Of a stretch of DNA of 44,536 nucleotides, positions 14,818 through 43,572 are shown one piece after another. Position 1 is the stretch's first letter, and each line of letters opens with the position of its first letter. Position numbers and translations under genes: made by a program. The DNA is taken from contig KQ965767.1 in NCBI GenBank assembly GCA_001574975.1, forward strand, positions 272,433 through 316,968, read 5' to 3'. This stretch comes from Gonapodya prolifera JEL478 (taxonomy: Eukaryota > Monoblepharomycota > Monoblepharidomycetes > Monoblepharidales > Gonapodyaceae). The notes beneath the pieces were generated by a model. That model was not told the DNA's origin. It saw only the letters and a program-made list of their open reading frames with translations, and made no database searches.

Positions 14818-17800
14818 TCACTCCGTTGGCGACGAAATGCTTCCTGTCTCCGCCAGCTCGCTCTTGTTTGCAATGATCATCACGCTGGTCTTTGTGCTCC
14901 ACCGAACCTTTTTGCCAGGCTCACTCTTACGCCGAGCGAGACCACCTGGCATTGCGAAGGGCGCCGTCGACGGTCCAGCGGGACCCGCTGCTGGGGATGT
15001 GGTGACCGGAGCGGTAGTAGTTCGCACAGGTGGGGATGGTGGGGGTGTGATGGGAGCACGAGGACTGGCAGATCGAGCCCGGCGGAGTGACGTGCTCCGA
15101 TCAGGAAGGTGTGGGGTGGGGGAATCACTGCGAGCTCTGTAACGACACAAAAGTAAGTTCATAGCAACGGAAGTTTTAAGATTACCTAAAACTCACCGTC
15201 GCAGCAACACTTCAACCACTCGCACAACCTGGACCCCAACCGTTCCTGCTCGCTCTAATTCCCCGGTACTGAGCTCTTCCAATTTCACACATCCCCACAT
15301 GGCCTCCTTCTCGCCGTCGTCTACCTCAGGGTGCGCCTCCACGTACGCCGTGACGGCTCGCATGGCCTCGGACGCCGACCACCGCGTGGGTTCCACCCCA
15401 GTGGCGTACTCAACCAGGGCGGCAAAAAACCTGGGACTGAGAGACGATATGCTCTTCTCGAAAGCGGCAGTGTCCGCGTCGGGTCCCAAGTGCTCGGCCA
15501 GGTTTCGAGATACACACTCCATCAAGGCATCCTTGTCCACACCAGGATCGTCGTACGCCAGATCGAGCTCCTTGGACGGCAGCTCCTCGAAGCGGACCTT
15601 GGACCAAAGCATTCCCATTTCCGCTGGTGTGAGTCTGTGCCCCCGACGAACTCGGTTGAAAACGTAGCGTCGAGCCATGGCAAAGTTCTTTCCAGCTTCC
15701 CCAGGCAAATCCGACAGTGTCGTGAGCAGGTGCAAGAGGGAGTCGGAAACTCCTGTCGGGGTCAATGGTGCGACAGCATCCTCGCGTCCTGCTGATGATC
15801 CAGAGCTCGAAGCGGAAAGGGGCTCCGCCTCGTCAGGTGTCGTAGGAGACATCACATCGCCAGGCGCAAACTGTGATGCCGCTGATCCGGGTCTCGATGG
15901 AGCCTCGAACGGTAACTCCCAGTGAGGACCGTCATCTTCCACCATGTCCACCATCTGAACTTCCGATCGGCTGTTCCAACCGTTACTTGACAGGGGCGGA
16001 ACATTCGAAGGGGCCGCGGTTTGCATCAGAGCGGGTGGAGCCGCTCCCTCGCCTGTCTCTTCCTCCGCTACCAGTTGTAAGCCGTACTCGTCCCTGCGCT
16101 CCATCGAGTCTCGCTCATCCCTTTCATCATCGCTTCCACCCAGAACAACACCAACCTCGCTCTTCCCATCCGGAAGAACCCCGGGGCTTGGAACAACCTC
16201 CACCTTTCTCTCTACGCCTCCGTCCACCAAAGGTCCGGGGAAGACGGTACTCGATCTCTTGGCTACATCTTCTCGCCTGGCAAACCTGCTCCCAGCTGGC
16301 GCCCCTTCACCCTGCGACTCGCTCAAGCCCCAACGAGGAACCCAGGGCTCCACCACGGGGGGTTCGATGAACACTCCTGGAGCCAATCCGATCGCCGCTT
16401 CGCGATCTCTCGGAGCCGAAACCGCACTAGCCGGAGGCGCCCTCCTGTGCGCGGGCTGCTTTGGCGCCGGGTAGTTTCCCACCGCCGGTCTTGCCGGAGA
16501 AGTGGACGTGGCCGCGGGCGACGGGCCTCTCGACGAACTCCCCGTCGGTGTCTTAGATCGTGCCGGCTGGTCTGGCGTCTGCGCCTGAATCCGATCTCGT
16601 TGCTCAGGGGTCTTGGAGCGCAATTGACGGTCTGGTTGGAAGTCGTGCTGTGCTGTCGGCACGAGCGCTGCGAGTGTGGGCCACGACGGCGCGCGGTGAA
16701 CCTCCACGGGATCGGCGGCAGGGGCCATTGCGGTGATTGTGCGGGTGAAGTCCATCGACCGACGCGTGGTATCCATACTTCCCCGCGGCCGTTCCTCCGC
16801 TTGCCATCCCCCGCGGGTATCCAAACTGCGCCGCGGTTGCTCCCTGGCCATCTCCCTCTCGTCTTCCACCCTGCCAGCCTGTCCCGCTCTGTCTCTCCCA
16901 ATGTCCTCCCAAATTCCTGCGAACGATCTCGACCTCCGGTGCACACCAGAGTCCGCCTCGTCCGCCACGGACCGAGACCTCCTCCGAACATCACCTCCCT
17001 CGTCCATACCCGCAAACGATCGCGACCTGCGATGTCCCCCGCCGTTGGCATCGTCGCCATTTCCTCCGACGGCGTTCGCCACAAAGTTACGCAACCGGGA
17101 AGCCATCGCCCCAGCCCCGCTTGGACGACGGACGTGGTGGCGTTCCCGATTTTCCTCGGGGGCAGGGGCAGGGGCAGGAGTAGGGGCCAGTCGAGGTGCA
17201 GGCGGGGTACTGGTCGACGCTGCAGCCGCTTCCCACCTCGCGCGAGCGTCGTCGCGTCGCGTGGAGGAGGCGGAACTTGCGGGGTCTTCGGGTGATGGGG
17301 TGGTGGTTTGACTGGGTCGAGGAGGTCCGCGGGGTGCGTGAGCGACGGTGGGGGTCGTCGCAAGGAAGAAGTTGGAGGGTGGAAGTGTGGGAGGCGGGGC
17401 GGGTGTGTATGTAGGTGGTGGAGGAGAGAGCTGCACATCCGCACCATGCGTTAGAAACGTGGACCAGGCACAAACAAACGAACGAGACAAATCACCGGTC
17501 CTTCCCCTCTTCCCAACGACGGCACGCTCTCCTCTCTCAAACTGGACGCACTGCCCTTCCTCGCCGCAGGCGCATACGCTGTCATCTGAGACGGCTGGCG
17601 GGCCACGCCTCCCCTCGGGCCCGGCGAGGACCCAGAACGCGCAACGGGGCGATCCATTGTCCGGTCCCGCTCCGACTGCGCCCCGCCAGATCCAGACCGC
17701 GCCACGGGCCTGTCGATACTTCGGTCAACGGAGCCCAGCCCCGACGGCGTGGGCGACCGGCCCTGCCCCAGGGGCGTCGCGGACCGGCTCGCGTTGGGCG

Positions 17801-19688
17801 TTGGCGACCTTCCATGCGGCACGGGGCTTGGCGCCGCTCTCTGCTGCCCTTGCGCCGGGGGTGGGGGGTAGAACGACCCCATGGACGAGCTTGACGACGG
17901 CGACGGCGCCGGGGATCCCCGCACGGCCAACGCGGGCGAGGAGGGCGATCGGTACGGTTGGGGCCCGAGATTGGGCGACCCTCCCAAGGGGGAGTTGAGC
18001 GAGGCGGAGGAGGGTGCCGAGCCGGGGAGGTAGGAGTAGTACATGTCGGGGTCGGTCGGTGCGCGGCGGATGGTGGGGTGGCCTGCGCCGCCGGGGGAGG
18101 AAATGGACGAGGAGGGCGGGCCGTAGATCGCCCCCGACAGTGTTGGCGATTCGAGCGACATTTGGAGGTCGTGGTCGAGTTTGTCGGAGGCAACGAAGCG
18201 GGATATGGTTCGGCGGGGGGGCGGGCGCGAATTTGACGGGGCGGAGGTGGATCCTTGGGGTTGGGCCTGGGATGGGCCAGGTTGTGGTAGTTGTTGTGTA
18301 GCCGGTGCTTGACGCTGCGACGACGTCCTTGGAGGCCGCGGCAACGTATCATCCCACGGCAGCAATGACACGTCCGGCGCTTGTGCCTGTGCAGCCATCG
18401 CTTCCGCACGGTCGAACGACTTCCGCGCCCGGTCAGCCGCTTCTGTAGATCGGTCGAGCGATTTACGCGGCCGTTCTCGGTCGGTGGATTGTCGCGGGGC
18501 GGGGAGGGACGCCGGGTTCGGGTTGGGGCTCGGGGGAGGTTGGTAGTTGGAGGCGGAGTAGGAAGCGGAGCGGGATGAGGGTCGAGATTGGGGTTGTGCT
18601 TGGCCGGCCGAGCGCGAGTCGCCGCGGGGGTCCCATTGCGCTGAGGTGGAGGGGTCCCATGCATCGCGCTGGTCACGCTGGTCACGCTGGTCACGCTGGT
18701 CACGCGGGTCACGCGGGTCACGCGGGTCACGCGGGTCACGACCATACGCGTCGCGTGTATAGTCCCGCTGATCCCGCTGATCGCGCGTCTCCCTCCCCGA
18801 CCGCGACTCCCGCGTTTCTCGGTGCTGGTCCCGGAAGTCCCTCTGAGCTCTCTCCCACTCTCGCATCTCCCGTTCCCGTTCCCGTTCCCGTTCCCTCGAC
18901 CTCCCCGCACTCAAAGCCGCTGCCAAATCCTGCCCCGAAAACTGCTGCGCCTGTTGCGACTGCAAGTACTGCTGTTGCGATTTGGAGTACACGCCCCACC
19001 CGGGCGGGAGGCCGCCGTCGGTTTGGTCCCATGTGTAGGGTACGTCGGGGTTGGGGTTGGAGCCGGGACCTGGGCGGGATCGAGCACGGGGTTCGGACGC
19101 GAATCCGCGGGGGTCGGAGTTGGTGAGTTGCGGTTGCGAGGAAGAAGGTAAAGGCGGTACGTAAGGATTCGAAGGGCGTCGTGAAGGTCGCGCGATGGTG
19201 TCGTGCGGTGGTGTTTGGGAAGGCCGGGCGTTGGAGTACGGCGTGTTCCCCGATTGGTGCAGTTGTTGCGGGACCCGGCGCTCGCGTTCCCTTCCTTCGA
19301 ACTCCCGCTCCCGCTCTCGTTCCCTGTCGAAAGATTTGCGCAACCCCACCGGTGGGCCACGCACGTCCACGTCGTCGATGCTCGGCCCGTCCAACCCCCC
19401 GGTATTGAACCGCAGCCGCACCGCCGCGGCTTCTTCGAGGTTGTCGTAAGGGTGACGTGGGTTGGGGGGTTGGGTTGAGTAGGTCCGGTGTGGGGGTGCG
19501 CGGGAGGAGGCGGTGGAGGGGTGAGGAGGGGAGTTGGAGTAGGAAGGGTTCGGGTATGGGTTGGGAGGGGAGTTGGAGTAGGAGGTGTAGGAGGGGTTGG
19601 GAGGCGGGTTGGAGGTGGATGTGGAGGTGGAGTTGGACGGGTGGTGGTAAGATGCCCGAGCGGTGCGGTCGCGGGAATCGCCGAACAT
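14818..19688 (-). CDS. Gene C: large disordered protein with C-terminal BTB-associated-type helical module
   Basis: Predicted 1581-residue protein from three minus-strand exons: 19688-17496, 17430-15197 and 15136-14818, all GT-AG with matching phases. Residues 1 to about 1280 are low complexity: Asn/Pro/Ser/Tyr at the start, Arg-Asp-Gln/Pro triplets near 325-350 encoded by a 9-bp repeat, Pro/Ser-rich tracts, and three RRSRS boxes near the start of exon 2 that look like basophilic kinase or 14-3-3 sites. Residues about 1285-1476 fold-predictably differ: they contain MLWSKVRFEELPSKELD, FFAALVEYAT and AMWGCVKLEELSTGELE, clearly related to the modules in genes A and B. No BTB domain was found. 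The last exon is Ser/Pro/Arg-rich again. An alternative start at 17490 would skip exon 1, but the in-phase splice favours one gene. Function unknown; a scaffold or adaptor is a guess. Confidence 0.7.
18668..18741 (+). repeat. 9-bp coding minisatellite (GGTCACGCT/G)n in gene C
   Basis: About eight 9-base units in a row, four GGTCACGCT then four GGTCACGCG, lie in exon 1 of gene C. On the coding (minus) strand they encode repeated Arg-Asp-Pro and Arg-Asp-Gln triplets. A looser set of the same triplets continues outward. Unit number is likely to vary between strains, since the frame is kept by any whole-unit change. Confidence 0.9.
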
Positions 19689-21205
19689 TGAGGAGAAGAA
19701 ACCTTTGATTGGGAAGAGGGGAGGGTGGGGGATGGGTGGAGGGGTCAGTATATGTTGGCGGGTGAGAGGGTGTCAAATGCTCCAACGGCGAGAGGGAGAG
19801 AGATTCACTCCGCGTGGCATCTCCGCGTTGGAGCACTCGCCTCCGGCAAAGTCCTCGGTCAGTGCATACCGTCCTGCGAGATTTTGCGTGCGGCAAGTAC
19901 AACCCCTCAACCAGTGGGTCTGTCCCAGATTCCCCTCCTGCCCGTCCTCCCAACAACGTTTTCTGACACTTTGCGTACAATCCGGTAGTCTCCGTGATCC
20001 GCTCGCTGCTGTGTCTCCCCTCGCACGAGTCCCTGTCTCCCATAGCCTCTCTCCGCGGATCACTCCCCTCCGGCGGACGTCTCACTTCACTCGCCAGTCT
20101 CGGTCAGTACCTAGCGGCGCTTAGGCCTCGGAGTCCTCCCTCCGCTCGCGTTTCGCGCTCCGGTCGGACCGCTCACCCCCCACCCGCCCTACCTAGCAAC
20201 TCACCAGTTCTGCCTCTCCGCCCCTCGCCCTCGCCCTCCTTCCCACCCAGCCTGGGCATCGTCGCCGCCTGGCCCCTCGCCTCGTCTCTGCTCATCCGCC
20301 TGTCCTTGACCTCCCACGCCCCCCTTCTGTCCAGACCGGCCCCCCCGCCCATCCCGTCGCCCCGCATGGGCACAAACCCCTCGACGCTGAACGACATCAT
20401 GCGCTACCGTCGCTGTGGCGGAGTGCAGAGAGTCTCCGCGGGATCAATCTCGCCCCCTCCCAGAGTGCCGAAATGCCTCACGTGCGTGCACAGCAGGTGG
20501 CCAGACCCGTCCCACTCCCGCTGCCCACTGTCCCACCTCGCACTCCGCTTTTGGAAATACTGCGTCTCCTCGCCTGCCGCACGCCACTCTCCTCTCTAAC
20601 CGCAATCGCTGCTCTGGCTTGTGCCCAGGATGGAAGGTGCTCGCTCTCCCGTCCCTTCAGCCACGCACTCGCTGTTGCCTCCGCACTCTCCGCACGTGGC
20701 CCTGTCCTCAGTCTGCTCTCTCTGCCGCTGCGCTCTTCTGCCGCACCTGCTGTCCACCTGCGGCTGCGTGGTGTCCGCCCTGTCGGTGTCTGCCAGATAT
20801 TCCGTGCTGATCAGCCCCTGCCCTGGGTCGGTCGCACCCCTGCCCGACGCTCTACCTCGCGCGGCGTCAAAACAAAAAGACAGACAAGGCGCAATCCCTT
20901 CCCTGTCTCGCGCTGCCGCTCGTCTCGCTGCAATGCCACAAGGTGTGCCCGTTCAGGAAACGTGGCTGCCTGAGGCGACCCGCCACCCGTGCCACACACG
21001 ACTTTGCTTTTTGCCGGGGATCTGAAGCGGATAAACCCCTCCCGCCGCTTCCGACACAGCGTGTCTGTCCCCCAGGCGAATCCCACTGCGAAGCGGTGTA
21101 GTTTAATTCACGTCCCGTTGCACCCACACCCACAACACTGCGCCCCGCCCTGCACTCCCACGCCACGCGCCAAGATACCTATCGCCACCTGACGGCCCTG
21201 GCAGT
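19689..21205. other. C-rich upstream region of gene C
   Basis: No gene recognised. The plus strand is strongly pyrimidine-rich (CCCTC, CTCTC words), especially 20100-20900, and many overlapping frames are open only because of composition. This is probably the promoter and 5' leader of gene C, possibly with untranslated exons. Confidence 0.45.
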
Positions 21206-35700: not shown

Positions 35701-38700
35701 TCACCGCGACGATACACCCCAATTTGACAACAAGCTTTCCAGCGACTTCTGCGGCTGCCGCTGCGCTCCCGCTTGCTCGCGTCCGCTCCTGGGGCCCCAA
35801 GACCCCAGAAGAGGCGGACCCGAGTTCACGGGTGTCCCAACCCCCACATTCATCGACACGGCGCTACGCCCGCTTCCGCCAGACTCCTGGTCAGCTCGGT
35901 CTTCCGAAAGAAGACGACCGTCGGGACCGTACGCCGCCACTGGTATATTGGTCAAACTGAGTGACCGGCGTAACCTCGGGCGCCCATGGAACTCTCCAGA
36001 ACTACTCGGACTCATCGAGGGCTGACTCTCGGAATGGTGCGCTGTCCCACCACCATGTTGCTCCTGAACGGTTTGTGGCGGCTGCCCCGCATCCTTGTTC
36101 AAATCCTCTCTTGACGTCTCCGACGGTTGGAACGTCTGCGACAAGGGCCGTGACCTCTGTGCGTACTCTGGGAGCGGAGGGCGGAGCGAGGAGGCCGTCG
36201 ACGAGGATGAATTGAGATGTTGCTGGTGTTGGTTGTACTGGGTGTTGTTGGCGGCTCCGGACGAGGACGACGAGGAGAGGTTGTAGCGGTGGTTGTTAAC
36301 GGCGCCGGACGAGGCCGAAGAGGAGAGATTGGACGCAATAGAGGAATCGCTGTGACTTCTGCTGTACCTGCATTGAGCAGCAGGGTTAGCATCAATACCA
36401 CGCATGCTCAAAAGGGACACTTACATGGCCAACATTGCGTCAATCAGCATCTGCGTCGGTGCAATGCTCTCCCGCCTCGCCCTATCCAGCTGATCGTACG
36501 TCATGCCCGAAAACTTTACTTCGCTCCACAGTGCGTGTCTTGTGCGTTCAGTCAGGGCCGCCCCGCGAGACACGGCGTACGACTTGACGGCCTCGTACTG
36601 CGCCAAAGGAGATAAGTGCGGTGGGCCACTCGTGGCCGTCGTGCCGTGCTCGAGAGCAGCAGAAAAGAAGTCGGACGAGGCCATGTTGAGCGCCGACGGG
36701 TTCGATGCCAGAAGCGTGGCCGCCGCGTCCAAAATCAGTGCGATGGGGACAGCAGGGTCCTCGAATCCCCGTTCCAAATCCGGTACAGGTACTTGCGTGA
36801 AGGGAACCCTAGCCCATAGGTCCGCCTTGACCGAGGGCGGGAGTGCCGCGCGAAGGGCCGACCGATGCGTGATGTACTCCCGAATGAAGGTGAACCGCTT
36901 TGCAGGCTCGAGACCGTCCACGACGTGCAAGATACTGACCAGAGGCGACGAGAACCCGTCCGCGTGCACCGCACCCGATGATCCCTCAGTCCGTGCCGGC
37001 CTCGGTGGCGGTCTCGGGGCCACAGCGACAGCGTTTGTGTGAGACGGTGGAGCAGCCGAGGCGCTCTGGGTCCTCGCGTGGGCGCCATTCTGCCCCGCTC
37101 CGTCATAGTACGACCCAGGCCGCCCATTGGGAGTCGTGATGTTCAGCGCGACCGCTGCAGCGCGGGATGCGTACATGCCCTGCGACCCCGAGGACGCATT
37201 GAGCGGGTCCATGGATGGCTGCCGGCTCGGTGGGGCACTTCCCTGCCCTTGCCCCTGCCCCTGCCCTTGTGCTTGTGCTTGTACTTGGGCTTGAATTTGG
37301 GCGTGGTATTGTATTTGGGCGTACGTTTGCGATTGCCCTGGCACACTCATCGTGGGCGGGAGTGCCGGGACCCCCGGGGAGCTCTGGTTGGAGTTCAGGG
37401 CCTCCCGCGAAGTCTGCCTGCTCACGACCTGTGCGTGGGACTGTGCGAATGGCGCGCCCAGTTGTGACGCGGTGAACGTGGATCTGTGGCCGGGGCCTGC
37501 TACGGCGCTTGGCGCAGACTCCGGGGGGAATTGAACGTCCGAAGAGCTAATGTTAGTTGGCGGTGTTGGGAGCATCTCGCGCGAGGGTTCTCGCCGGACC
37601 GCCCCCGCGCCCCCGACGTTGGTGTTGTAGGCCCGGAGCTGGGGCGATGAAGATTGTGTGGAGGATTCGAGGCCACGGGATACATTGACAAGATACGAAT
37701 CGTACGAGCCGGGCTGGGTATCTGCACCAGACGCCTGCTGCTGAGAGGGCCTCATGCGTGGAGCGCCCTGCCCCGCTTGCCCCTGCCCCTGCCCCCCTGA
37801 ATGCGACAAGGAGCTCTGCAGGTGCGGTTGGCTCGCCGTCTGGGGCATCTGCGACTGCAACGCGTGCTCCCTCCCCAAAATAGCGCTGGATCGGTTCCCC
37901 GGCTGCAGGAGCGGGTCGGACAGGGACTGCGGGATGGCGTTGGCGTTGGCGTTGGGACCCGTTGGCGGGCCAGAGGGGCGCAGTGTCAGCGCGCGGATGA
38001 TGGTGTGGTAGGTCGCTTTGCTGGCGGCCGGGATGCTGGGGTCTTGTAACCTGGTGAGGGAGGGGAGCGGGGGTTCGGGGATCGGGGTGAGAAAGGGACG
38101 GGACGTACACCGGGACCGCTCAAAGGCAGGAGGCACAAGGACACTGAAAACTCACAGCTCCACAAGGTACTCAAACATCAACTCCCCCGGCGGGCCATCT
38201 CCACTTCCCAAGAACCCTGCCAACTCGTCCACGCTCATGACTCGGAACGGCACCTGCCGCCACAGCGCCTTGACCGTATGCGGGCCCGTGTCGGGGTGCT
38301 TTGCAAGGAACCCGCGCACCATCTCCCCCTGCACGACGGCCGGGATCGGCTGCGTAGGGGACGAGGTGGCGTGTTCGAGCACAGCCTCGAACAGGTCTTG
38401 CGTTGTCGAGTCCAGCGCGGCAGGGTTCCGAAGCGCCATTGCAGTCGCTGCGTCGAGGATGAGCACGACGGGGATCGTGGGGTCCTGGAAACCGGCCTCG
38501 AGTTCGGCCAGGGACAACCCGCGGAACGACACTTTACTCCACAGCTCCGACGCGGCGTCCGGTGCTACGGGCGAGGCAGAGTTGTTGCGCGTGTTGAGGT
38601 ACTTGCGCACCACTTCGAACTGCTGCGGCGGTTCGATATGCTCGATCGCCACGCCCAGCCGCGCGGGGGTCATGTTGAACAGCTCGGGGCCGTCTAGGTC

Positions 38701-39788
38701 CGCCGTGCGCTCGTACAGCTCCGCAAGCCTTCCCATGGCCCGCCTCCGCACGTCCACGAGGCCCCAGGCTTGGGCTTCCCGCGCGATGGCGTCCAAGTCA
38801 TCCGGTGTGCCCTTGTGCCCCTCGATGGCGTCGGCGATGGCGCGTTCGGATTCCGCCGTGAAGTGCGTCATGTCCATGGCCCCGGCCACGCGGAGGACCC
38901 CGACGATTTCGTCCCATTTGGTGTCTTGAACGGCGAGAGACCAGGATTCGAGGTTGTAGAGGGCCCAAAGGATTTTTCCGACGACTTCGTGGAGGGAGCG
39001 GTGCGGGGGTAAAGGGGGGAGTTGGTAGACGGGAAGGAGGACTCCGGGGAGTTGGGGGGTCGTGGAGGTTGGGGGGTTGGGTGTGGAGGCGAAGAGGGTT
39101 TCGAAAAAGTCGGAGCGGAGGGAGAGGACGAGGCGGTGGCAGGGGACGGTCGTCATCTGTGGTGGGAGGGAGGAGCGTCAGCGGTGTGATGGTTTCGGCG
39201 AAGGGGACATGGGATCGTTCCGGTTTTCGTGTCCCCTTCGACTCCCATTGTGTCTTCCCCCCACTCCACTCCATTCATTCCATTCGGCTTCCCATCCTCT
39301 TATCTCTTTCATTTCTCTCCTTGTCTCCCACTTCATTTCTCCTCCTCCCTTCTCAGTCCCGTTGCCATACCTCACCCCAAACTCTCAATTCTCATTCCAC
39401 ACCACTCAACTCTCCATTCGCTTCACTAGTCTCCCATCGCTCCCATCAGTCCTCTGTCTCCCACTTCTCTCCCCTCTCTTCTTCGCACCACCTTTGGGAC
39501 CGTTGCTCGAACTCAACCCACCTTGTTATCCGTCGTCTTGATCTTGAGCAGCGCATCCGCGTACTTTGCCAGCTTCAAGTACCCATGTAAGCCACCCTTC
39601 CTTAAAAACGGGGACTCCCTCACTCCGCTGTTGGGTCGGCCCCGGGATGGCGACGATTCACGTGCCGAGCCTGAGTGGGTGGCCCGGTCACGACTGCCGG
39701 CCCGGCGGGGCCTGTCCCGCGACTGGCTCCGGCGACGGTTGGGTGGGGGGTTTGGGTCGGAGGAGGAGGATTCGCCGTTGGTGAGCAT
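35701..39788 (-). CDS. Gene A: BTB-domain protein with two copies of an unnamed helical module
   Basis: Predicted 1186-residue protein. Four minus-strand exons: 39788-39522, 39156-38156, 38050-36425, 36367-35701. After a Ser/Arg-rich lead, a BTB (POZ) dimerisation domain (about residues 70-165) reads KYADALLKIKTTDNK, then VPCHRLVLSLRSDFFETLF and LHEVVGKILWALYNL. A helical BACK-like linker follows. Module A1 (about 270-423) contains FEVVRKYL, LWSKVSFRGLSLAELEAGF, PVVLILDAATAMALRNP and LWRQVPFRVMSVDEL. A Gln/Pro/Ser-rich linker of about 370 residues leads to module A2 (about 800-965) with LWARVPFTQVPVPDLERGF, IALILDAAATLLASNP and LWSEVKFSGMTYDQL. The tail is Ser/Asn-rich. BTB proteins often act as Cul3 adaptors or as self-associating scaffolds; which applies is unknown. 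Intron 1 (365 nt) is long. It lies head to head with its relative, gene B. Confidence 0.82.
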
Positions 39789-40416
39789 GTGGGGCGTGGA
39801 GGGGTGGTGTTATGGAGTGAAGGTGTGGATATATGGAGCAGATAGGAGAAGACAAGCACAATGGCTGCAGAGTCCCCTGACTCGCGAGGGCACCACCAGA
39901 GGCAGGGCGGATTCAAGCAGTGGGCGACGTGCGTGCGTGTACGAGCGAGGGGCTCATGCAGGCGTGTGGTTGGGTGTTGGGAGTGCGAGGAAGCCAACGG
40001 ATACTCTCGGAGACTTTGTCATACCCAACTCCAAGGGTGCAGGTGCAAAAAAGTCCCGCCCAGCAAAAATATAGACTGAGCAAAGAATGTCTGCAGTCTT
40101 CTACAGAGCTGTCTTAGATACTGTATCGCTCTCCTGCTAACTGCTGCTCACTCCATCCACCGCTCGGATTCGCCGACACCGTCCCCGCCCTGTCGCCCCG
40201 CCCCACAATCTCCACGCGCCACGCACTCCCACGCACTCCCTACACGCTCTGCTGCACTCTCACGCCCTTTTCCATTTCCGCACATATTTGGTGTTTTTTC
40301 CGGATGCGAGGAGGCACACCACACCGCGCCACACGCCACCGCATGGCCCGTGCCGATTGCCCACTGCCTTCTCTCTGGTAAGGACAGAGAACACTACCCC
40401 ACTCGCAGCCGCAGAC
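39789..40416. promoter_or_regulatory. Shared divergent promoter region of genes A and B
   Basis: The 628 bases between the two start codons hold no gene. A run of G+C-rich sequence with a pyrimidine-rich CACTCCCACGCACTCCC stretch (about 40220-40240) lies nearer gene B, and TATA-like words are weak (ATATATGG near 39829 and AAAATATAG near 40067). Co-regulation of the two paralogues from this region is inferred from layout only. Confidence 0.4.
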
Positions 40417-43400
40417 ATGATGGGCGACTCGCCGATGTCGCCGCAGCTGGACGCAGCGGACGTGGTCCAGAACGGAGGTGAGTTGAGTCTTCCCTGGACA
40501 TGTCCTTGGGGGAAACACTTGGAGCAACAGACTGACACGGCTCGATTCCNTCCCTCCCCAGGCCCGCAACAACCAGCGCTGACGGCGTTTCTGCCCTGTG
40601 AGTCGTCTTTCCCTAGGGAGTGTACCCCCCGTGTCTGATCCAACTCACGTGCCGCGTCGGACGATCCACATCCCGCAATCCCGCAGACCTCAAGGCCGCN
40701 AAGTACGCTGACGCGGTGCTCAAGATAAAGACAACGGACAACAAGGTGTGTTTCTCCTGCCCTGTGCCCTTGTGTCTCTCTCCACCTTACCTCGCCTTCC
40801 ACCTTCCCTTCCCTTCCCCCCAACCTCCGCCACCCCACCACCCCATCCCCACCACGCAGATCAACACCGTCCCCGTCCACCGCGTCCTCCTCTCCTACCG
40901 CTCGCCCTTCTTCGAAGACCTCTTTTCCCAAACACTCCCCACCGAGACAAACTCCAAAGGGTTGCCCATGTACCCGCTCCCAGTTCTGCCGAGTCATAAA
41001 GCACTGCATGAGGTGCTGGGGTTGAGTTTGTGGTGGATTTGTGAGTGTTGCGTGGGGACAAAGGGGGTGGGTGGGGGTGGATGCGGAGCGAGGCGGAGCG
41101 AGGCGGGAGGTGGGAGGTGGGGGAGGGAGACGGGAGGACGGGGCATGAACAGATGCACGGGTGGGATAGACCAATCGGTCGTCACACGAGAGCACTTTGT
41201 CTATTATTGCGACACAGGGTGGATTCAGCGGGCGTCGGGACGAGAGATCTCGATGTCGGGTGGAGGAACAACGGCGCGGAAGACTTGGGCAACCCGGAGA
41301 GGACCCGAGGTTCTCTCATCGCTCGGCTCTCTCGAAACCTTTCGCTTTCGTGCCAGTCGTCTCGTGCGGAGTGGACCTCCACTGCTATGGAGGCGCATGG
41401 ACCAGGAACAGGACCAGACACGCGGTAGGGTAGAGTGGACGCAGAGGGCTCGAATCCTCTTCTCCGACGACGAGCACGACCGAAATGGAAAACGTGCGGT
41501 GGGCGGTAGGCGGCGGGCGGCGGGGTGCGGAGGATTGGGCGTTTTCGTTATCCGCCTTTCCACCCTCAACTGCCACATCACGTTCCCTTTTCCTTCCTTC
41601 TTACACCTCTTCTATCCAACTAACCCTGCCCCTTCCAACCCCCTCCTTCCTTTCCCATCTCCCACCTAACAAACCCCCCCCCGGCCCCCCTGTTCTCCTC
41701 CCCATCCCACCCCTCACAAGACTCAATGGAAGACAACGAAATCTCCATCCCCGAATCCAAATGGGACCAGATCGTCGGCGTGCGGCATGTCGCGGAGATT
41801 TTCGAGTTGCCGAGGTTGCATTCGTGTGAGTGCGGGGTGTGGGGTGTGGGGTGTGGGGNGGGGGGGGGGGGGGGACCGGAGTGGACGCGTGAACGTCAGA
41901 GCTAGCGACGATCGTGCTCTGGGGAGGTGGACTGTGTCGCTTGCCGGTACTGCGTCACGGAAGAGTCGAGGATGTGGGATATGGACCGGAGATGGAGACA
42001 ATTGACGCGCGCGCGGGCGGGGAATCGATCAAGTGTTGGAGCGAAGACGGGGGGTAGAGTTTTCCCTGCGCTTGTACCGTTGACGCAACCATTGATATCT
42101 CCACCCCCCGCAACCCACACCACCCCAACCTCCGCCAACCAGACTCTGACCGCGTCCTCAAAACCTCGATCGAAAACCCCACCTCCACGCCCGACGACAT
42201 CTTCACCATCGCCGACGAAGCCGCTAAATGGGGCGTGCGCGACATTGAGAACCTCGCCATCGACCGCCTCGTTGACTTGCTCGCGTCCCCCGCGACCGAT
42301 GACGATACATTGGCCGTCACGAGTTTTACGACGTTTAGTGCGATTCTGGACCATACGGACCCGACAAAGCACTTTGCGCTTGTCAGGCGGTACGTGGCTG
42401 CACGGTCACGCCCGCACCTGGTCCTTCCGAGCGACCAATCCGCCGCGCTGTGGAACCGTGTTCCCTTTGACGCCCTGGGCGTGGAAGATATCGAGAACGC
42501 CTTCGTGGACAACAACGTGCCCATCTCGCTCGTCCTCGACGCCGCCTCGTCCAAGATTGCGACCGACTCGCACGCCTTGCTCCGTGCCTCGTTCGACCTG
42601 TTCTTTGCCACGGTCGACCACGCCACCGCCGACGTCCTGGATGCGGAACCGAGCCACCTGTTCGTGCCATGGCCGGCAAACCAGACGTACCAGATGGTCA
42701 GGGCGTATGTCCATGCGAATCCGGATTTGGATGGCGGGCAGAGAGAGGATTTGTGGTCAAAAGTGAGGTTGGAGGATTTGACGTTGGATGAGCTCGAGGA
42801 GGCCAATAGGGATGGAAGCGCGCCGAGGAATGCGCTTGTTACGGCGTTGTTTGCAAAGTAGGTGGTGGCTGTCGCTCAGCATTGGAGGTCGCTCAACGTT
42901 TCCTTCTCCTTCTACTCATCCTTAACTCTACGTACTTTCTCTCTTTTACCTCACACACCGACTCCACCCACCTAACCCCACACCCCACACCCCACACCCA
43001 CTCACCTCTCCCAACTTCACCAACAAAGACTCCGCACACCCGGTGCCGGTGGCCCCTCCTCCTTCATGGTGGGCTCCTTCGGCGGCGGCGGCGGCGGCGG
43101 GGGTGGGAGCGGCGGCCCACCATCGCTCCAAAGCCGCCCCTCGGTCGCCTCCTTCCCCCGGGGTTTGCCCCCGACTCCGCAGTCGCATCAGGGGTCCTCG
43201 TCATCGTCCATGTCCCGTCTCCCACCCTCCATCTCGTCAGGTGGTGGGAGCCAAGGGGGCCCGTACACGTTGGGCCCCCAGCCCGTGATCGACACGCAGT
43301 TGGGCGTGGACTTGCCCTGGGCCACGCCCGGCCAGGTAGGGGGGTTGGATAACTCGGACGCCCAGAGTGTGGGGACTGTGCCGGTGCCGTTGAGTCCCCC

Positions 43401-43572
43401 TGCGTCCATGGGGGGTGCGAGTGGAGGAGGGGCTGGGGCTGTTAATGGAGGAGGGAGCAATGGGAATGGAGCGGCGGCACCGCCCCCGACGACGTCAGGG
43501 AAGGCGGTGAGCGTGTCGGGCAAGAAGGGCGCGGGGATTCAGAGGTTTTTGAGGGAGTCGTTGATTGGGTAG
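40417..43572 (+). CDS. Gene B: BTB-domain protein with one helical module
   Basis: Predicted 566-residue paralogue of gene A. Seven exons: 40417-40477, 40562-40597, 40687-40745, 40860-41040, 41721-41825, 42143-42857, 43029-43572. The BTB domain (about residues 33-115) begins YLKAAKYADAVLKIKTTDNK and continues VPVHRVLLSYRSPFFEDLF and LHEVLGLSLWWIY. The intron after TTDNK sits at the same place and phase as in gene A. A helical linker (SKWDQIVGVRHVAEIFELP) precedes the module (about 220-386) with FALVRRYV, LWNRVPFDALGVEDIENAF, ISLVLDAASSKIA and LWSKVRLEDLTLDELEEA. The tail is Gly/Ser/Pro-rich with a poly-Gly run. Intron 4 (680 nt) and intron 5 (317 nt) are unusually long. Undetermined bases lie at 40550 (intron), 40700 (a silent Ala position) and 41859 (intron). 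Function unknown. Confidence 0.82.
41855..41874 (+). repeat. Poly-G run in intron 5 of gene B
   Basis: About 20 G in a row, one reported as N (41859), preceded by repeated GGGGTGT units. Its true length is probably unresolved in the assembly. It lies inside an intron, so the protein is not affected. Confidence 0.85.
42976..43000 (+). repeat. CCCCACA tandem repeat in intron 6 of gene B
   Basis: Three to four units of CCCCACA lie between the exon 6 donor and the pyrimidine-rich acceptor region. A short simple repeat with no coding role. Confidence 0.7.
43081..43101 (+). repeat. GGC trinucleotide repeat (poly-Gly) in gene B
   Basis: Seven GGC codons followed by further Gly codons begin the last exon's low-complexity part. 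The length could vary between strains. Confidence 0.8.

Follow-up and report, generated by a model that had tools for sequence, protein, structure and literature searches.

A doubled helical module beside BTB domains in the fungus Gonapodya prolifera, with a BACK-like predicted fold and a partial resemblance to plant NPH3

The window analysed here, a stretch of 44,536 nucleotides from contig KQ965767.1 (C37) of Gonapodya prolifera JEL478 (positions 272,433 to 316,968, forward strand), belongs to a genome of 47.6 Mb in 207 contigs and carries three genes, A, B and C, that share an unnamed helical module (Table 1). Genes A and B lie head to head, and in each of them a BTB domain is followed by a helical hairpin at the position of the 3-box and then by the module. 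Gene A, which has three GT-AG introns and a frame open throughout, continues from its first module, A1, through a long low-complexity spacer to a second, A2, and a Ser-rich tail. Gene B has a single module and a Gly/Ser-rich tail, and its product is 386 or 566 residues long depending on whether the last of its six or seven exons is included. The two genes have the string KIKTTDNK in common, immediately 5′ of the intron that interrupts the BTB domain. The module of gene C forms the C-terminal end of a long Ser/Arg/Pro-rich open reading frame (ORF; 15193-17724).

Table 1. Module genes and modules of the window, numbered from its first nucleotide; the limits of modules A1, A2 and B and of their halves were counted by hand.
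Feature	Positions	Strand	Details
Gene A	35701-39788	-	Four exons: 39522-39788, 38156-39156, 36425-38050, 35701-36367; 1186 aa
Module A1	38155-38670	-	Half 1 about 38670-38425, half 2 about 38406-38155; 3-box-like hairpin just upstream, about 38808-38695
Module A2	36424-36951	-	Half 1 about 36951-36700, half 2 about 36681-36424
Gene B	40417-43572	+	Exons 40417-40477, 40562-40597, 40687-40745, 40860-41040, 41721-41825, 42143-42857, with or without 43029-43572
Module B	42319-42858	+	Half 1 about 42319-42567, half 2 about 42586-42858; 3-box-like hairpin about 42190-42285
Gene C	15193-15801	-	One module, without BTB
Module of gene C	15196-15762	-	Half 1 about 15762-15487, half 2 about 15444-15196

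The four modules of the window belong to one homologous family together with 14 others in the genome. They can be aligned over their entire length, and 17 columns of the alignment are invariant; these include LW, V and F in half 1 and W and V in half 2. When the family profile was run against 212 ORF pieces of the window (104 residues), seven matched with at least 54.9 bits, all inside the four modules, and the best piece outside them reached 1.9 bits. Searches of the genome with each of the four modules (E <= 10) returned 37, 34, 27 and 35 matches, counts that include weak, split and allelic-contig matches; besides itself, each query recovered paralogues and a copy on contig C83 that is nearly identical to it. 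We took 15 further genomic stretches, in which the four-module profile matched 16 ORFs, at least one per stretch; leaving out L014 (gene C on C83) and L015 (the allelic counterpart of L004), 13 of the 15 are new loci. The resulting alignment of 18 modules represents 16 genes if two ORFs of L008 are counted as one gene, and all family counts refer to this one genome. Viral contigs (three pattern matches, none confirmed) and bacterial and archaeal genomes (14 pattern matches, none confirmed) gave no close relatives, negatives that carry no information on the spread of the module in fungi or plants.

Each module is itself a tandem repeat of two homologous halves. Aligned with hhalign, half 1 matches half 2 over 61 columns (probability 98.3, P 1.7e-14, score 72.7), compared with a maximum of 16.9 for 100 column-shuffled decoys, and the halves of module B, in its predicted structure, can both be interpreted as five helices arranged in one common order. 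The original prediction, made from the letters of the window, had proposed a module shared by genes A and B and also present in gene C, two copies in A and one in B at the stated coordinates, and a construction from tandem half-units; all of this holds, gene C having one copy.

Two spliced products were matched by the BTB family PF00651 above its cut-off of 20.5 bits, gene B with 29.0 bits (residues 35-147; the 386-residue form was scanned) and gene A with 23.2 bits (residues 1-423 scanned). With a BTB profile built from six members, BTB precedes the module in 12 of the 16 genes, of which six (B, L006, L007, L010, L011 and L012) stand outside the set used to build the profile. The order of BTB, helical hairpin and module recurs in A, B and the other BTB genes; the hairpin was assigned to the 3-box by its position and pair of helices, without a 3-box profile. 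The BTB profile found no such domain in gene C, L008, L009 or L013, where coverage outside the window extended only a few kb upstream, and nothing near gene C within the window. In a tree of 17 rows (one partial row of the 18, L008:2132-2545, being left out), a single branch with support 90/91 separates the BTB-less rows, four in number, from the rest; it is unstarred, as are all but 2 of the 14 inner branches, and the branches of L009 and L013 are long. None of 500 label shuffles was as low for this grouping. Loss of the BTB domain in one branch fits these genes no worse than an independent domain does. The module had earlier been proposed to be a separate domain because it occurs outside BTB proteins: the occurrence is borne out by 4 of the 16 genes, but it gives the conclusion no advantage over such a loss, the BTB-less rows being one group.

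Structure prediction points to a BACK-like fold for the module. Model 1, an AlphaFold2 prediction of module B with its 3-box-like hairpin that starts at position 42142 and uses a four-row, window-only alignment, is all helical (pLDDT 87, pTM 0.77): the hairpin corresponds to helices H17-30 and H33-48, half 1 to H62-69, H74-87, H97-105, H114-122 and H128-141, and half 2 to H151-162, H179-192, H198-206, H215-224 and H229-238. Model 2, an AlphaFold prediction of gene A with part of the BTB domain, is also all helical in the module (pLDDT 70.1); the two models are not independent, because they share alignment rows. VIA-align, applied as a second look at the best 1000 Foldseek candidates, ranked human KLHL11 (4apf) first for model 1 (Z 10.8, rmsd 4.7, 167 residues), followed by 9ya0_KE, a chain of the Toxoplasma pre-conoidal ring (Z 10.4), and then by a ZSWIM8-CUL3 chain (6.8). 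For model 2, 9ya0_KE came first (Z 10.9), ahead of three KLHL11 entries (10.5, 10.5 and 9.7), with the next match at 6.7; among the matches listed, 3i3n and 4ap2 appear for model 2 only. Over both models, the KLHL11 matches have an rmsd of 4.7-4.9 across 160-167 residues. The matched KLHL11 range, 149-329, is estimated to start before the KLHL11 3-box, so that the register is not one to one and the match is to the general BTB-BACK helical stack. In the BFVD viral library, four of seven rows with probability of at least 0.95 for model 1 and six of eight for model 2, among the 50 matches listed, were named BTB/Kelch; the remaining high-probability rows had no telling name, and no E-value among the 50 was below 0.01. 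Other BACK structures (KLHL3, KEAP1 and gigaxonin) were absent among the matches listed for both models, which is no proof of difference. In KLHL3, four BACK helical hairpins are expected (PMC3616122). The predicted fold of the module is similar in general outline to BACK as found in ubiquitin-ligase adaptors of animals.

The other top match is known here by its entry title: 9ya0_KE ties with KLHL11 as the best fold match, the matched part is residues 288-513 of chain KE, and this chain may itself hold a BACK-like domain. A search of the literature found nothing on this pre-conoidal ring chain.

At the sequence level, the module resembles a different BTB partner more closely than it does BACK. 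By hhalign, the plant NPH3 domain is matched in its C-terminal part by half 2 together with the end of half 1 (score 48.3, P 7.9e-8, 93 columns); the aligned portion is the last 95 or so residues of the module, and identity is 22-24%. The first 78 NPH3 residues, approximately the part covered by Pfam, score 40.8 alone, the last 26 residues of the hand-entered sequence lying outside the stretch that Pfam recognizes. With a 252-residue form of NPH3, the P value against the module was 7.5e-7. Controls of several kinds stayed far lower: 60 column-shuffled profiles reached at most 16.8, 200 shuffled NPH3 sequences at most 19.8, reversed NPH3 11.3, 205 window pieces outside the modules at most 18.0, and 62 overlapping ORF pieces from cullin loci (of which L020 and L021 share DNA) at most 22.2. 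A 200-piece window control contained two pieces of the module genes themselves, one starting at 38865 (-) in gene A and one at 42058 (+) in gene B, which scored 98.1 and 87.6. By HMMER, NPH3 ranked best of 5006 sequences, 5000 of them shuffles, with 17.5 bits (E 6.9e-4), followed by a BACK consensus (8.8 bits) and the best shuffle (8.0 bits). These alignments argue that half 2 is probably homologous to the C-terminal part of the NPH3 domain, a resemblance that the original prediction, partly supported in its other readings, did not contain.

For BACK, the sequence signal is fainter. The BACK profile scores 23.2 against the module, with decoys at no more than 15.8; single BACK sequences score 11.6-21.1, and one cullin-locus ORF piece reaches 22.2. 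Half 2 aligns weakly to the BACK core, including VRL and the Leu strip that follows it. Searched at E <= 10, Pfam returned nine families for the 18 modules, each matching one member, NPH3 among them. We took the non-NPH3 matches as chance, although the best of them, Mersacidin, is nominally stronger than NPH3. In Pfam, the family consensus gave LRV and Mersacidin, with HTH_62 and DUF6887 in addition for its second half, none of them better than E 0.03; the reversed consensus gave one match, at E 0.022. Searches of PDB sequences with module profiles returned only rows at E 0.3 or weaker. With a BTB-containing profile, the best of 20 rows (4u2n, E 0.0014) was a BTB stretch, like the majority of them, and two unrelated rows (E 0.4) reached later parts. 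Neither BACK (PF07707) in the scanned spliced stretches of A and B nor Kelch in their scanned parts, from which the last exons were left out, was matched by Pfam.

Taken together, these results make it probable, in our assessment, that the module, at the position of BACK, represents a BACK-type helical domain that has diverged and been doubled in tandem, that its half 2 shares ancestry with the C-terminal part of NPH3, and that the BTB-bearing proteins are likely CUL3 adaptors. Several results weigh against this interpretation. On the BACK side, PF07707 matched none of the 18 modules at E <= 10 and nothing in the genome at E <= 0.001 (control genomes were equally without matches); sequence alone is insufficient for BACK, because the score of its profile barely exceeds that of the cullin-locus piece, and one BACK sequence was entered by hand, not drawn from a database. 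The original prediction of a derived BACK domain is thus favoured by the model fold and by the position after BTB and hairpin and contradicted by the profile searches, and its statement that no named family could be assigned agrees with the Pfam models, none of which exceeds its cut-off for the modules. On the NPH3 side, PF03000 reached 13 bits (E 0.083) on gene C, under its cut-off of 27, and matched only this one of the 18 modules at E <= 10; the strongest single-member Pfam match was Mersacidin (E 0.0046), and the family consensus did not match NPH3 in Pfam. The N-terminal part of NPH3 shows no similarity to the module (score 10.3, P 0.59), and BACK compared with NPH3 directly gave a score of 16.5 (P 0.08). 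Both NPH3 sequences were likewise entered by hand, not drawn from a database, Pfam recognizing them at 4.7e-44 and, for the longer form, 3.4e-102. A multiple-family correction is due, because NPH3 was chosen after the Pfam suggestion and a noticed resemblance; it brings the significance to about 0.003 (24736 × 1.4e-7, the latter being 6.9e-4/5006), or to about 0.02 with the P value of 7.5e-7. On the structural side, Foldseek against the PDB gave nothing better than E 0.07, the aligner notes state that Z values of 10-11 can be attained by helical repeats through arrangement alone, and residues 1-98 of model 2, its BTB part, are poor, with pLDDT under 50.

Much of this would also be accommodated by a lineage-specific helical repeat that came to follow BTB through domain shuffling and whose only likeness to BACK and NPH3 is that all consist of stacked helical hairpins: the absence of a curated family above cut-off, the Foldseek result, the middling Z values common for helical repeats and the restriction of the sequence match to part of NPH3 all favour it. 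We nevertheless consider such a repeat unlikely, in view of the NPH3 score of 48, when controls of several kinds did not exceed 22, the lead of 3 to 4 Z units by which KLHL11 and 9ya0_KE top the matches of both models, and the fact that BTB is the partner of NPH3 and of BACK alike, something that chance would not single out. A plainly diverged BACK domain with a coincidental likeness to NPH3 would be in keeping with the position behind BTB and the 3-box-like hairpin, with KLHL11 among the top matches of both models and with the weak BACK alignment of half 2; the module is a doubled unit, however, and two programs found NPH3 far better than BACK by sequence, which makes this account improbable. 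Horizontal transfer of a plant NPH3 gene fragment into the fungus has in its favour that NPH3-type (NRL) proteins are described as plant-specific (PMC7242014) and that BTB-NPH3 was found only in Arabidopsis among 17 genomes compared (PMC1257465). The low identity, the divergence among 18 modules, the unmatched NPH3 N terminus and the lack of any PF03000 match in the genome (E <= 10, control genomes equally without matches) make a transfer very hard to credit. We infer common descent with NPH3 rather than convergence.

The fungal proteins can be compared with two known groups. Like KLHL11 and KLHL3, the proteins of genes A and B combine BTB, a hairpin at the 3-box position and an all-helical domain, and KLHL11 is among the best solved matches; unlike the KLHL family, the fungal modules have no PF07707 match, their helical unit is doubled, some members have no BTB, and the Pfam-scanned parts of A and B contain no Kelch match. 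With the plant BTB-NPH3 (NRL) proteins (PF03000), they share the BTB partner and the alignable C-terminal part; they differ from them in leaving the NPH3 N-terminal part unmatched, in scoring under the Pfam cut-off and in occurring outside plants, the group to which NRL proteins are assigned.

The genome also holds the expected partner of such adaptors. An ORF of 540 residues in L017 scores 201.7 bits with Cullin-3, compared with 112.3 for the best Cullin-4A, and the pieces searched for other cullins are closest to Cullin-1, to Cullin-2 (with Cullin-1 nearly tied) and to Cullin-4. KLHL3 binds Cullin-3 through its BTB domain together with the 3-box hairpin of BACK (PMC3616122), and NPH3 is a substrate adaptor of a CUL3 ligase for phot1 (PMC7242014). 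By analogy, the BTB-bearing module proteins are most likely CUL3 adaptors: BTB and 3-box would grip Cullin-3, the doubled helical array would act as a rigid protein-binding arm presenting a substrate or partner, comparable to the role of plant NPH3 towards phot1, and the BTB-less relatives, gene C and its kin, would be partners or scaffolds that retain the arm only. Inspection by eye of the BTB alpha3-beta4 region revealed no clear Phi-x-E motif.

A broader proposal, to which we give slightly less than even credence, is that NPH3 is not a plant invention and forms a branch of an old BTB-linked helical superfamily that includes BACK, with the fungal doubled module as a surviving intermediate linking both. 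This link depends on the intermediate module, because the direct comparison of BACK and NPH3 shows nothing. If it is true, plant phototropism adaptors and animal Kelch adaptors would share one ancestor consisting of BTB plus a helical arm. A sequence search with the hand-entered consensus found no solved relative of NPH3 (E <= 1); through a fungal relative for which a readable BACK-like fold model exists, this phototropism adaptor would gain a testable fold and origin. A further gain would be a CUL3-type adaptor family that is expanded in this genome and nameless in the copy of Pfam searched. Among the titles listed in the open literature, which leaves most subscription journals outside, none concerned fungal or chytrid NPH3 or BACK proteins, so that the novelty of the family is not established; searches with NPH3 peptide strings found only papers unrelated by title.

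Comparison with the copies on contig C83 shows purifying selection on modules A1, B and C, which have dN/dS values of 0.068, 0.021 and 0.031, respectively, at a synonymous divergence of 0.36-0.39. Module A2 does not by itself show strong constraint, because its dS is only 0.053 and its dN/dS 0.384. Between the homologous contigs C37 and C83, A2 (window 36424-36960; C83 62298-62834) thus has a dS of 0.05, compared with 0.36-0.39 in the adjacent A1 and B and in C, as if two diverged copies existed within the genome and A2 had recently been homogenised. On C37, the stretch adjoining the window on the right (316969-326800) reads N (9832 of 9901 bases), and the missing C37 counterparts of L001 and L002 are uninformative for this reason.

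Module genes cluster on the same contigs (C83 26019-83620; C28 379429-385524; C17 253077-258973; C11 136681-155062; C37 358815-366985), which suggests tandem duplication. In the wider genome, chitin synthase (PF01644) has nine matches, eight of them above cut-off, and PF14775, a family belonging to the flagellar dynein regulatory complex, has one; both would suit a flagellated, chytrid-like fungus. Long Ser/Arg/Pro-rich stretches occur in gene C (window 15193-19772, - strand) and in other BTB-less members, and a DQR repeat is longer in the C83 copy of gene C (L014) than in the window copy. The tail of gene A (35701-36367, - strand) contains RPRLRRSLSLTNIP, a basic-Ser motif of the type associated with AGC kinases and 14-3-3. 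An RxS site is likewise present at the C terminus of plant NPH3 (PMC8531357).

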